64,000 bases of DNA from Leptolyngbya sp. BL0902. Lineage in GTDB: Bacteria > Cyanobacteriota > Cyanobacteriia > Phormidesmidales > Phormidesmidaceae. This document shows positions 33,526 through 37,575 of this stretch, in pieces (position 1 is the first letter of the stretch; each line of letters begins with the position of its first letter). The notes beneath the pieces are model-generated. The model worked only from the letters and a program-made list of their open reading frames with translations. It was not told where the DNA came from and ran no database searches. Made by a program: the position numbers and the translations under genes. The stretch is from contig NZ_CP046155.1 in the NCBI RefSeq assembly GCF_016403105.1, positions 1,736,001-1,800,000 of the forward strand, read 5' to 3'.

Positions 33526-36500
33526 ATGCATCGCTTAGCTGCCACCCCCGGAGGGTGGACTCCCGACACCGACGGCGTGATTTTTGTGGAGCAATCCCCC
33601 GCCGATTGGGTTTTCCTCACCGCCGCCGATACCGAAATTCAGACCCTCGCCGCTGCCCAAAAGCGTTTACCCCAGGGCTTTCCCTCGCTGCGTGTGGCCA
33701 ACCTGCTCCAGCTTCAGCAGCAGTTGGCCATCGATACCTACGCCGACACGGTACTCAACCACGCCAAGGTCATCATCCTGCGAATCCTCGGTGGCCGCGC
33801 CTACTGGCCCTATGGTCTAGAGGTCGTCCAAGATACCGCCGCCCAAACCGGATCCCACCTGATTGTCCTCCCTGGAGATGATCGGCCCGCCCCGGATTTA
33901 ATCAGCCATTCCACCGTGCCCCTCACCGTGGCCAATCAACTCTGGCGCTACCTAAATGAAGGCGGCGTGGAGAATATGACCCACGGGCTGTTGTGGCTGG
34001 GCGATCAGCTTTTTGGCACCAATTATCGGCCCCCAGAACCCCAGGAAATTCCAAAAGTGGGGTGCTATCCGTTTGGCCTAGCCTCTGCTGCCCTCACCCC
34101 TAGCCCCCACTCCCCACTCCCCACTCCCCACTCCCCACTCCCCATCGGACTTCTCTTTTACCGCGCCCACTACCTGGCAGGCAACACCGCCCCCATCGAC
34201 GCCCTCTGTGCTGCCCTAGTGGAACGAGGTTTGTCGCCCATCCCGGTGTATGTGTCGTCGTTGCAGGATCCCGATGTGCAGGCGGAACTGTTGGCGCTAC
34301 TGAAGCCCAAGGACAGCCCCGGCATTGAGGTGCTGCTGAATACCACCAGTTTTTCCGTGGCCAAGCTGGATGGCGGTACGCCCAACCTGGATCTCTGGGA
34401 ACGGCTGGATGTGCCCGTGTTGCAGGTGATCCTCAGCGGCGGCACCCAGGAAGCATGGGCCAACCAAAGCCTGGGCCTTTCCCCTAGGGATATCGCCATG
34501 AACGTGGCCCTGCCGGAGGTGGATGGGCGGATTATTACCCGTGCGGTGTCCTTCAAGGCGGCACAGCAGCGCAGCGATGCCCTAGAAACCGATGTCGTCA
34601 CCTATGAACCCGTGCCCGACCGGGTAGATTTTGTGGCGGATTTGGCGCGGCATTGGGCCACCCTGCGCCGCACTCCCGTGGCCGAACGCCGCATTGCCCT
34701 GGTGTTGGCCAACTATCCCAACCGCGATGGTCGCTTAGCCAATGGGGTCGGCCTAGATACACCCCAAAGCGCCATTGAAATCCTCCACGCCCTCCAAGCC
34801 GCTGGCTACACCGTAGGCGATATTCCCACCGATGGCGACGACCTGATCCAACGCCTCACCGCTGGCCCCACCAACGACCCCGAAGGCCGAGACTTCCGCC
34901 AAATTCGCCAAACCCTGCCCCAAGCTGACTACCTCGCCCACTTCCACCACCTCCCCGCCCCTGTCCAATCCGGCATGGTAGAACGCTGGGGCCAACCCAC
35001 CCCCCACACCCCCGACTCCAGCCCCAATTCCCAGTCCCCAACCCCCATTCCCCATTCCCCATTCCCCATTCCCGGCCTCCAACTCGGCAACGTCTTCATC
35101 GGCATCCAACCCAGCCGGGGCTACGACGTAGATCCCTCCCTCAACTACCACGCCCCCGACCTCGAACCCACCCACGATTACCTCGCCTTTTACCTGTGGC
35201 TGCGGAAGAGTTTTGGAGCGCAGGCCATCGTCCATGTGGGCAAGCACGGCAACTTAGAATGGCTCCCCGGCAAGGGTGTCGGCCTTTCCCAAGATTGCTA
35301 CCCCGAAGCCATGTTTGGCCCCCTGCCCCACCTCTATCCCTTCATCGTCAACGATCCGGGGGAAGGCTCCCAGGCCAAACGCCGCGCCCAGGCGGTGATT
35401 CTCGACCACCTGACGCCGCCCCTCACCCGCGCCGAACTCTACGGCCCCCTGCAACAGCTAGAAGGCTTGGTAGACGAATACTACGAAGCCCAAAGCCTCG
35501 ACCCCACCCGGCTCAAGGTCATCGGCGATAAACTCCTCACCCTCCTCACCGAAACCCACCTCCTTAGCGAAATTTCCCCAAAAATCACCTCAAATTCCCC
35601 CCAAAATCACCCTCTCCCCCTCCCCTCGTCCACCAATCTCCCCCTCTCCCCCTCCCAAAATCTCCCCACCCTCCTACCCACCCTCGACACCTACCTCTGC
35701 GAACTCAAGGAAGCCCAAATCCGCGACGGCCTCCACATCTTTGGCCGCTGCCCCGACGGTCGCCAACTGCGGGACTTAATCCTCGCCATTGCCCGCCACC
35801 CCGGCCCCGGTCGCCAGGGGCTTACCCGCGCCATCGCGGAAACCTGGAACCTCGACCTCGACCCCCTCACCGCCGACCTGGGGGCACCCTTCGATCCCGC
35901 CTGCCAATCAGGGAGTCATCCCTCATTACACACCTGCCGCATCGTTGGCGATGTTGTTGAAGCATTAGAAGAAGAAGCCGCTCGGTTCGTGGAAGCCTTG
36001 CTACACGGAGAGTCCCCTGATCCGAGCCGCCCTCACCCTAGCCCTCTCCCAGAGGGAGAGGGAACCGGAGGTATACCTGACACTCAGCTAGAAATAGATC
36101 AGTCACTATCTGAGAACCTAACCCACTCCCCCTCTAGCCCCCCTCTCCCGGGGGGAGAGGGGCTGGGGGTGAGGGCCAACCTCCCTACCGAAGAGAACTC
36201 ACCCCTTACCCCTGAACTCCACTGGATCCAAACCACCCTCCTCCCCGCCCTAATCCGCACCCGCGACGAAATCACCTACTTACTTAAGGGTCTGGACGGT
36301 CGCTATGTGCCCAGCGGCCCCGCCGGAGCGCCCACCCGCAACCGCCCGGATGTGCTGCCCACCGGGCGAAATTTCTTTTCCGTAGACATTCGCGCCATCC
36401 CCACCGAAAGCGCCTGGGATGTGGGCCGACGGGCGGCGGAAACCCTGATTGTGCAATACACCCAGGACAACGGCGACTATCCCCAAACCCTGGGCCTGTC

Positions 36501-37575
36501 GGTGTGGGGCACCTCCACCATGCGGACGGGGGGTGATGATTTGGCTGAAGCCCTGGCCCTGATGGGGGTGCGTCCGGTGTGGGATGGGCCTTCGCGGCGG
36601 GTGGTGGATTTTGAGATTTTGCCCCTGTCGGCCCTGGGTCGGCCTAGGGTGGATGCCACCCTGCGGATTTCCGGCTTCTTTCGGGATGCCTTCCCCAATT
36701 TGATTGACCTGTTTGATCAAGCGGTGGCGGCGGTAGCGGGGTTGGACGAACCCGCTGACCAGAATCCGTTGGCGGCACGGGTCAAGCAGGAATCGGCCCA
36801 GTGGGAACAGCAGGGACTCACCCCAGAGCAGGCGGCGACCCGTTCCCGCTATCGGGTGTTTGGCTCCAAACCCGGTGCCTATGGGGCGGGGTTGCAGGGG
36901 TTGATTGAATCCCAAAACTGGACGACCGACGAAGACCTCGCCCGCGCCTACCTGAACTGGAGCGGCTATGCCTACGGGCGCAAGGCGGAGGGCCACGCCG
37001 CACCGGAAGCCTTTGAGCAACGGCTGCAACAGTTGCAAATCGTCCTCCACAACCAAGACAATCGAGAGCACGACCTGCTGGATTCCGACGATTACTACCA
37101 GTTCCAGGGGGGCATGACGGTGGCGGCGCGGACGCTTCAGGGTCAGCAGCCCACGGTTTACTTTGGCGACAATGCCATCACCGCCCAGCCCAAGGTGCGG
37201 ACGCTGGAGGCGGAAATTGCCAAGGTCTACCGTTCCCGCGTGGTCAACCCCAAGTGGATTGAAGGGGTAATGCGCCACGGCTACAAAGGAGCCTTTGAAA
37301 TGGCCGCTACGGTGGATTACCTGTTCGCCTACGACGCCACCGCCCGCTGTGTGGCCGATCATATGTATGAGGGCGTTGCTAACGCCTACGTGCTGGATCC
37401 CCAGGTGCAAGCCTTTGTGCAGCAGTCGAACCCCTGGGCGCTGCGGGACATGGCGGAACGGCTGTTGGAAGCCCACCAGCGAGGAATGTGGGCCTCGGCG
37501 AATCCCACGATGCTGGACGACCTGCGCCAGATTGCGAACGAGGCGGAGGGCATCCTAGAGGCTCGACAAACGTAG
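33526..37575 (+). CDS. cobN: Cobaltochelatase subunit CobN
   Basis: 1349 residues, somewhat longer than usual. CobN is the large subunit of the ATP-dependent cobalt chelatase of cobalamin synthesis and is homologous to ChlH/BchH. Recognisable blocks are ILRILGGRAYWPYGLEVVQD near the start, VHVGKHGNLEWLPGKGVGLS, FIVNDPGEGSQAKRRAQAVI, FFSVDIRAIPTESAWDVG and WGTSTMRTGGDDLAEALALM. CobN is chosen over ChlH because the N-terminus and LPGKGVGLS match CobN. At least four low-complexity, proline-rich stretches (about residues 190-210, 490-525, 685-725 and 835-890) are encoded by repeat DNA but keep the frame. The cobST or chlID partners are not in the window. Confidence 0.92.
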   Translation: MHRLAATPGGWTPDTDGVIFVEQSPADWVFLTAADTEIQTLAAAQKRLPQGFPSLRVANLLQLQQQLAIDTYADTVLNHAKVIILRILGGRAYWPYGLEVVQDTAAQTGSHLIVLPGDDRPAPDLISHSTVPLTVANQLWRYLNEGGVENMTHGLLWLGDQLFGTNYRPPEPQEIPKVGCYPFGLASAALTPSPHSPLPTPHSPLPIGLLFYRAHYLAGNTAPIDALCAALVERGLSPIPVYVSSLQDPDVQAELLALLKPKDSPGIEVLLNTTSFSVAKLDGGTPNLDLWERLDVPVLQVILSGGTQEAWANQSLGLSPRDIAMNVALPEVDGRIITRAVSFKAAQQRSDALETDVVTYEPVPDRVDFVADLARHWATLRRTPVAERRIALVLANYPNRDGRLANGVGLDTPQSAIEILHALQAAGYTVGDIPTDGDDLIQRLTAGPTNDPEGRDFRQIRQTLPQADYLAHFHHLPAPVQSGMVERWGQPTPHTPDSSPNSQSPTPIPHSPFPIPGLQLGNVFIGIQPSRGYDVDPSLNYHAPDLEPTHDYLAFYLWLRKSFGAQAIVHVGKHGNLEWLPGKGVGLSQDCYPEAMFGPLPHLYPFIVNDPGEGSQAKRRAQAVILDHLTPPLTRAELYGPLQQLEGLVDEYYEAQSLDPTRLKVIGDKLLTLLTETHLLSEISPKITSNSPQNHPLPLPSSTNLPLSPSQNLPTLLPTLDTYLCELKEAQIRDGLHIFGRCPDGRQLRDLILAIARHPGPGRQGLTRAIAETWNLDLDPLTADLGAPFDPACQSGSHPSLHTCRIVGDVVEALEEEAARFVEALLHGESPDPSRPHPSPLPEGEGTGGIPDTQLEIDQSLSENLTHSPSSPPLPGGEGLGVRANLPTEENSPLTPELHWIQTTLLPALIRTRDEITYLLKGLDGRYVPSGPAGAPTRNRPDVLPTGRNFFSVDIRAIPTESAWDVGRRAAETLIVQYTQDNGDYPQTLGLSVWGTSTMRTGGDDLAEALALMGVRPVWDGPSRRVVDFEILPLSALGRPRVDATLRISGFFRDAFPNLIDLFDQAVAAVAGLDEPADQNPLAARVKQESAQWEQQGLTPEQAATRSRYRVFGSKPGAYGAGLQGLIESQNWTTDEDLARAYLNWSGYAYGRKAEGHAAPEAFEQRLQQLQIVLHNQDNREHDLLDSDDYYQFQGGMTVAARTLQGQQPTVYFGDNAITAQPKVRTLEAEIAKVYRSRVVNPKWIEGVMRHGYKGAFEMAATVDYLFAYDATARCVADHMYEGVANAYVLDPQVQAFVQQSNPWALRDMAERLLEAHQRGMWASANPTMLDDLRQIANEAEGILEARQT
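34105..34144. repeat. Heptamer repeat inside cobN
   Basis: Tandem copies (five to six) of CCCCACT encode a PHSPLPT-like peptide in frame in cobN. Confidence 0.85.
35043..35073. repeat. Second heptamer repeat inside cobN
   Basis: About four tandem copies of CCCCATT encode IPHSPFPIP in frame. The core differs by one base from the first heptamer. Confidence 0.85.
36030..36062. repeat. REP-like palindromic element inside cobN, copy 1
   Basis: The sequence CCCTCTCCC-AGA-GGGAGAGGG is an exact inverted repeat preceded by CCCTCACCCTAG. It encodes PHPSPLPEGEG, a peptide recurrent where such REP-like elements insert in bacterial genes. Confidence 0.8.
36131..36176. repeat. REP-like palindromic element inside cobN, copy 2
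   Basis: A near-perfect palindrome (CCCCTCTCCC with GGGGAGAGGGG at 36140-36162) is followed by CTGGGGGTGAGGG. It encodes SPPLPGGEGLGVRA in frame. It lies 70 bases after copy 1. Confidence 0.8.

Follow-up and report, generated by a model that had tools for sequence, protein, structure and literature searches.

In-frame dispersed repeats recur at homologous loops of cyanobacterial CobN

How can a conserved enzyme gene hold several blocks of repeat DNA, some built of seven-base units, and still be read from end to end? The question is raised by cobN, the gene of a cobaltochelatase subunit, in a 64,000-nucleotide stretch of the genome of Leptolyngbya sp. BL0902 (the window; contig NZ_CP046155.1, positions 1,736,001 to 1,800,000). 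The window sits on a 4.3 Mb contig of a 4.7 Mb assembly in 6 contigs. Its cobN is a single uninterrupted open reading frame (ORF) of 1349 aa and encodes full-length CobN (TIGR02257, 1660 bits; PF02514, 1396 bits), for which 9uk9 is the closest solved structure. The repeats lie in four loops, named A to D:

33526-37575, + strand: cobN, cobaltochelatase subunit CobN (TIGR02257, PF02514, solved-structure alignment)
34090-34107, + strand: loop A, half an arm of the hairpin element (94% complementary to 36159-36176, as an inverted match)
34105-34144, + strand: loop A, (CCCCACT)5.7, 100% match, translated as PHSPLPT repeats
35022-35073, + strand: loop B, CCCCATT array, 7.4 copies, 84% match
35570-35667, + strand: loop C, C-rich stretch of two overlapping repeat kinds with periods 22 and 24
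36029-36176, + strand: loop D, a single dispersed element of two hairpins (outer inverted ends: GCCCTCACCC...GGGTGAGGGC)
36042-36062 and 36141-36161, + strand: loop D hairpins, the palindromes within the element at 36029-36176

A first-pass annotation of the window had placed both heptamer arrays, a C-rich stretch (35575-35665 in that account) and two palindromes within one intact cobN frame. All of these were confirmed, and both peptides that it expected from the gene, PHPSPLPEGEG and PPLPGGEGLGVRA, are present in the translation. The CCCCACT trimer gave three overlapping matches, all in one array, versus 0.00 expected from 100 shuffles of the window, and the hairpin stem with up to two mismatches gave two window matches versus 0.01 expected from shuffles.

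The two palindromes had been taken for separate captures, and this view did not survive a comparison with the rest of the genome. The window and another 41 blocks of 20 kb each formed a sample of 884 kb, or 19% of the genome, in which 48 hairpins of the loop D type were found with at most two substitutions allowed. Of these, 41 are intergenic, 2 lie at gene edges and 5 fall in gene calls, namely 2 in cobN, 2 in one ORF (L080) and 1 doubtful case. Outside the window, 18 hairpin pairs were observed with start-to-start spacings of 41 to 125 bases (41 to 45 in 13 pairs), most of them carrying the same outer inverted ends as the cobN element. A profile built from the 16 outside pairs spaced less than 80 bases, with the two widely spaced pairs dropped, matches window positions 36028-36180 as one unit (nhmmer, E 9e-15). 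Since one two-hairpin model covers both palindromes, two independent captures were rejected. The element, about 100 bp long elsewhere and 148 bp in cobN, has a dispersed origin and was copied into loop D. It displays the REPIN-type trait of two inverted hairpins forming one dispersed unit, as well as the trait typical of Rickettsia palindromic elements (RPE), in-frame translation within conserved genes. The stems of the 18 pairs, inspected by eye only, showed neither a GTAG nor a CGTC tag.

The distribution of the inserts was explored in CobN relatives. Of 57 genomes searched, the window genome (G000) included, 56 gave a match, and 41 CobN genes were aligned; the split frame of G009 and fragmentary genes were left out, G040 is represented by its longer part only, and G032 contains runs of N. 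At the G032 locus (L052), two copies of cobN are separated by about 8 kb, possibly through an assembly fault. Inserts of at least 8 aa cluster after residues 186, 496, 688, 793, 831 and 1155. The two-hairpin element occupies loop D in 7 of the 41 genes, the window's own and those of G002, G003, G011, G017, G019 and G020 (E values of 2e-17 to 2e-14 in these six). Apart from those of G000 and G002 (about 154 bases), the copies are compact (91 to 96 bases), and G008 has a single hairpin in loop D (7e-5). Part of the element also matches loop A on the opposite strand in 7 of the 41 genes (8e-9 to 1e-6), with fuller copies of the hairpin arm at this site in G002, G008, G011, G012, G017, G019 and G020. 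Weak matches of about 1e-5 occur in three other families (G032, G047 and G055). For the loop D element, common to the seven genes named above, descent from one old insert is accepted in part. At another locus (L066 of G021, about 1260-1370), cobN is joined at the loop A hairpin element to a stretch preceding a gene that, by reading, resembles hisA; either copies of the element have recombined or the contig is chimeric.

The same loop is filled with different repeats in different species. Depending on the genome, loop A contains the hairpin, AAAATTC-type heptamers, CCCCATCC octamers or CCCCACT heptamers, and within the closest genus its class changes at least five times if the hairpin is taken as ancestral (manual count on a tree of the remaining protein sequence). 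Tandem arrays were counted at scores of at least 40, with overlapping rows reduced to the best-scoring one. CobN carries 65 arrays across 25 of the 41 genes, two of them upstream of the start and dropped, as were all arrays before residue 1. Of those whose period is not divisible by 3, 36 lie inside loops A to D (12.9% of the protein) and 4 outside.

A larger set, the best 80 of 588 CobN relatives, which shares at least 7 genomes with the 41-gene set, showed the same pattern. Counts refer to the 79 loci that gave a long frame (L348 begins inside the gene and was left out), with arrays outside residues 2-1340 dropped. The six loops, all of them insert sites in the 41-gene set, comprise 204 of 1349 residues (15% of the protein). 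They hold 59 period-7 arrays versus 0 outside, 18 period-8 arrays versus 1, and 138 arrays of all periods versus 23. The period-7 arrays come from 31 of the 79 loci; 45 are in loops A to D (none in C) and 14 at sites 793 and 1154. Loop A alone has 15 distinct heptamer units in 17 loci, and one old inherited insert was rejected as the source of the arrays on account of this variety of units. On an 80-tip tree, presence and absence require a minimum of 13 changes at loop A, 15 at B, 7 at C, 5 at E, 17 at D and 4 at F, and presence at loop D was not clustered by descent when compared with 200 shuffles.

How such arrays leave the frame intact follows in part from arithmetic. Neither 7 nor 8 shares a factor with 3, so an array of either unit encodes the same cyclic peptide whichever frame is read. 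A stop is therefore present in all three frames or absent from all of them. In an array that is stop-free in every frame, only a total length divisible by three is thus under selection. The stop-free share of all possible heptamers is 69%; 12 of the 32 distinct units would read a stop on the other strand, and the AATAGTC unit of L286 has a stop in its idealized consensus, yet the actual frame is open.

Units of 7 and 8 bases would also shift the frame if gained or lost one at a time, and the arrays could make cobN phase variable, with one heptamer more or less toggling B12 synthesis. In G009 (two contigs; L051) and G024 (L060) the cobN frame does break inside loop D repeats. However, the G009 break lies within a C-rich run, G040 breaks away from any repeat, and a switch would imply up to six loops that are each a switch. 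Moreover, 79 of the 80 loci of the larger set are in one long frame (L348 is partial), a weak argument, as choosing the best 80 of 588 favors intact genes. A switch or regulatory role of the arrays is not supported, and we consider the phase variation reading very unlikely. Sequencing errors are common in C-rich runs, and the loop D frame changes in L051 and L060 could be real or sequencing errors. In G037 (L047 and L048) and G048 (L049 and L050), CobN is encoded by two genes located far apart, with the split between aa 781 and 898. Together with the breaks in G009 and G024, this suggests the region around loop D as a natural break point as well.

Draft contigs end within the loops at L023, L056, L057, L063 and L064, as an assembly or annotation artifact would have it, and other contigs end elsewhere in the gene. 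Arrays are nevertheless present in large contigs, such as those of Calothrix brevissima NIES-22 (L286, 8.5 Mb) and Cylindrospermum NIES-4074 (L279, 6.8 Mb), and in the 4.3 Mb contig of the window itself, which makes an artifact scarcely credible.

Recurrence at the same CobN sites would also be expected if the inserts were retained for a function, be it linker length, pausing of translation, or a structure formed by DNA or RNA (a G-quadruplex, for example). G-rich heptamers of the Nostoc type form quadruplexes in vitro (PMC4692102). In CobN, however, C-rich, G-rich and A-rich units share one loop, and therefore no strand or structure is conserved; a quadruplex role was set aside for this reason. 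Insert lengths vary widely, and an array of the 7- or 8-base type is found in a loop in only 39 of 80 genes. We regard retention for function as rather unlikely.

The position of the inserts was then compared with protein structures. When the protein was aligned with the two best solved CobN chains, 9uk9 and 7c6o, loops B, C and D coincided with gaps in each of them. Loop A did so in 7c6o alone; at that position 9uk9 has a similarly long loop. Neither chain has the same insertions as conserved domains, which is what the first-pass annotation had named as evidence against its proposal. AlphaFold models were obtained for aa 1-760 (mean predicted local distance difference test score, pLDDT, of 72) and aa 640-1349 (mean 77), with 29 sequences each, and Foldseek matches both to CobN and ChlH structures. 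Loops C and D are modeled as coil, and pLDDT drops below 50 in loop C (aa 685-710 in one model, 686-708 in the other) and in loop D (aa 837-887); block means of 52 to 65 were obtained near aa 181-200 and 491-510. The inserts are thus predicted as low-confidence coil, and may be disordered in the real protein.

ChlH, a structural paralogue of CobN, served as control, using the 30 best loci from 55 genomes with a match. These proteins span 1329-1340 aa, none of the 30 genes has an insert of at least 6 aa, and the three arrays found all have periods that are multiples of 3. In the 22 genomes with both proteins, the standard deviation of length is 39.9 aa for CobN versus 3.0 aa for ChlH. The profile of the two-hairpin element, run against the 30 ChlH genes, gave a best match of E 0.28.

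The inserts are not confined to cobN: GH38 mannosidase, HyuAB oxoprolinase, PriA, CobA-HemD and others carry them too, and a specificity for cobalt genes was rejected. In the window genome, the CCCCACT trimer occurs at 5 places, and the 884-kb sample contains 12 period-7 arrays, 10 of them in the calls of a simple gene caller. Gene calls cover 81% of this sample, and genes are therefore neither avoided nor preferred. The resemblance to intergenic cyanobacterial repeats that had been noted holds for the class, which is that of the Nostoc heptamers, and fails for the location. Of the 10 arrays in calls, one lies in what we take to be the native glycine-rich motif of biotin carboxylase (L078) and was left out of the insert count. 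Three others, near ORF starts (L076, L098 and L101), may reflect misplaced starts. Internal period-7 inserts were assigned, by Pfam and reading, to four genes of this genome, with two each in CobN and PriA and one each in the GH38 mannosidase and a RadA-like protein (inside its AAA match).

AAAATTC trimers are present in 28 genomes, several of which hold copies beyond cobN. Their context was read at 30 loci, amounting to 24 places and a subset of the total; 17 of the 24 are inside open frames of at least 285 aa and 7 are not. The host genes, named by Pfam where scanned and otherwise by homology matches or reading, are CobN, HyuAB, the mannosidase, an Mfd-like gene, CobA-HemD, a C39 ABC transporter and two histidine kinases. 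Arrays lie between Pfam domain matches in the scanned mannosidase, HyuAB, CobA-HemD, Mfd-like and ABC proteins. Mannosidase and HyuAB were inspected at 30 loci each; in both, repeat-derived inserts return at the same loops from genome to genome and across families, alongside inserts resembling ordinary sequence. In one nested unit, AAAATTC-type heptamers surround a small hairpin with GGAGACGCTACGCG. It is found in several genomes at CobN loops A and B, at two HyuAB loops and in another gene, and gave six exact matches in 38 genomes, three of them in cobN.

These copies bear on whether the inserts were born locally, by slippage within the loop and unrelated to dispersed repeats. Units do differ between lineages, arrays are homogeneous, and plain heptamers are compatible with slippage. 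On the other hand, the hairpin element belongs to a dispersed family, unit copies were found elsewhere in the same genome (CCCCACT in G000, AAAATTC in several genomes), and slippage could hardly yield the nested AAAATTC-hairpin unit at several genes and genomes. Local birth only is therefore unlikely. Recurrence at unrelated loops suggests that the nested unit, too, was copied from elsewhere; for plain heptamers, entry and local growth are indistinguishable.

Similar repeats were observed beside the main subjects. In HyuAB of G000 (L250), hairpin remnants and CCCGACT-type heptamers occur in at least two loops, and HyuAB of G036, from a different cyanobacterial family (L180 and L265), has further repeat types, including a hairpin-like unit that recurs in frame and a KAEGRRQ heptapeptide run. 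The window contains a second such gene:

48909-52976, + strand: histidine kinase with PAS-like regions (named by reading)
52658-52704, + strand: C-rich array, period 14, directly before the motif YLLITVQDQGRGIP of the histidine kinase

By reading, YLLITVQDQGRGIP is likely an ATP-binding motif, and in kinases of G005 and G010 (L190 and L196) a similar motif is directly preceded by AAAATTC arrays.

Taken together, the inserts are probably explained by permissive loops that are repeatedly colonized by dispersed repeats, with only in-frame, stop-free outcomes surviving. The permissive sites would be a few flexible loops or interdomain linkers of CobN and some other large enzymes, at which 7- and 8-base tandem arrays, hairpin elements and small hairpins nested in heptamers would enter or grow. 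Selection would keep the results that are stop free and in frame, to be translated as disordered linkers, and the inserts could later be trimmed, expanded or swapped for other repeats. Near neutrality of the inserts, and the molecular route by which they might have entered, are conjectural parts of this proposal. Of the earlier idea of palindromic elements captured at CobN loops, it keeps the repeat DNA in frame at loops and gives up the palindromes in general, as the heptamers are not palindromic.

Several observations weigh against this explanation. Loop positions were defined from the inserts, so that the enrichment is partly built in, and because the genomes are related, a binomial value for the 36-versus-4 split is no probability. 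Periods that are multiples of 3 also fall in loops A to D (14 in and 9 out, or 14 of 23), periods 14 (15 in the six loops, 4 out) and 21 (9 in, 1 out) also occur outside loops, and inserts in one or two genes lie elsewhere, at residues 263, 281, 288, 432, 457 and 1207. Presence at loops A and F was clustered by descent versus 200 shuffles, heptamers one base apart may be mutated descendants, and arrays are no more frequent in gene calls than the coding share predicts. Conserved stretches of both AlphaFold models also have low pLDDT, and low confidence alone is therefore no proof of disorder. Finally, ChlH is one control only, made of the 30 best of 55 genomes.

We lean slightly towards a broader statement, in which a general and still active process in cyanobacteria rebuilds the interdomain linkers of conserved enzymes, using dispersed hairpin elements and 7- and 8-base arrays, the latter as frame-neutral cassettes, homologous loops having been recolonized dozens of times across the phylum. 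If so, dispersed repeat DNA would have repeatedly supplied linkers to conserved enzymes at the same places phylum-wide. With ChlH, of the same fold, staying repeat free, this would provide a countable natural experiment on where proteins accept foreign DNA. It would also mean that draft genomes can break at repeat-filled loops.

A literature search by title and start of abstract returned no paper on repeat inserts in CobN and none on recurrent filling of homologous loops, and repeat inserts go unmentioned in the accessible part of a CobN paper (PMC10156173). The closest parallels come from other repeats. RPE, described in the accessible part of PMC10969869, are about 150 bp long and lie in frame in unrelated genes. 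The cobN case is alike in having a palindromic element in frame inside protein-coding genes, and differs in that the two-hairpin element shares loops with nonpalindromic 7- and 8-base arrays and that the same loops are filled by different repeats across a phylum. In 2008 Elhai reportedly described small dispersed repeats that sit within heptamers; the small hairpin within the AAAATTC array resembles them, but is here inside reading frames. Heptamer repeats of cyanobacteria go by the name STRR, and those of CobN are of the same class, with tandem 7-base units at many dispersed loci.

For the Nostoc heptamers, GGGGA(C/T)T, 68% of 89 arrays are intergenic according to the part of PMC4692102 available to us, and some intragenic heptamers are therefore already known. 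In the window genome, by contrast, the sampled arrays are not mostly intergenic (10 of 12 in gene calls), and a position in protein loops is undescribed in that part of the paper. Repetitive extragenic palindromic (REP) sequences of the GTAG and CGTC kinds, and REP dimers, lie within the coding sequence of genes in other bacteria, uvrA and uvrB among them, and GTAG families also occur in cyanobacterial genomes. The available portion of that source (PMC3733652) describes no recurrence at homologous loops, which is what is found here. In-frame palindromes (RPE), intragenic REPs and Nostoc heptamers are thus already known, and the inserts of CobN are of this known kind, in a new variant that recurs at homologous loops.

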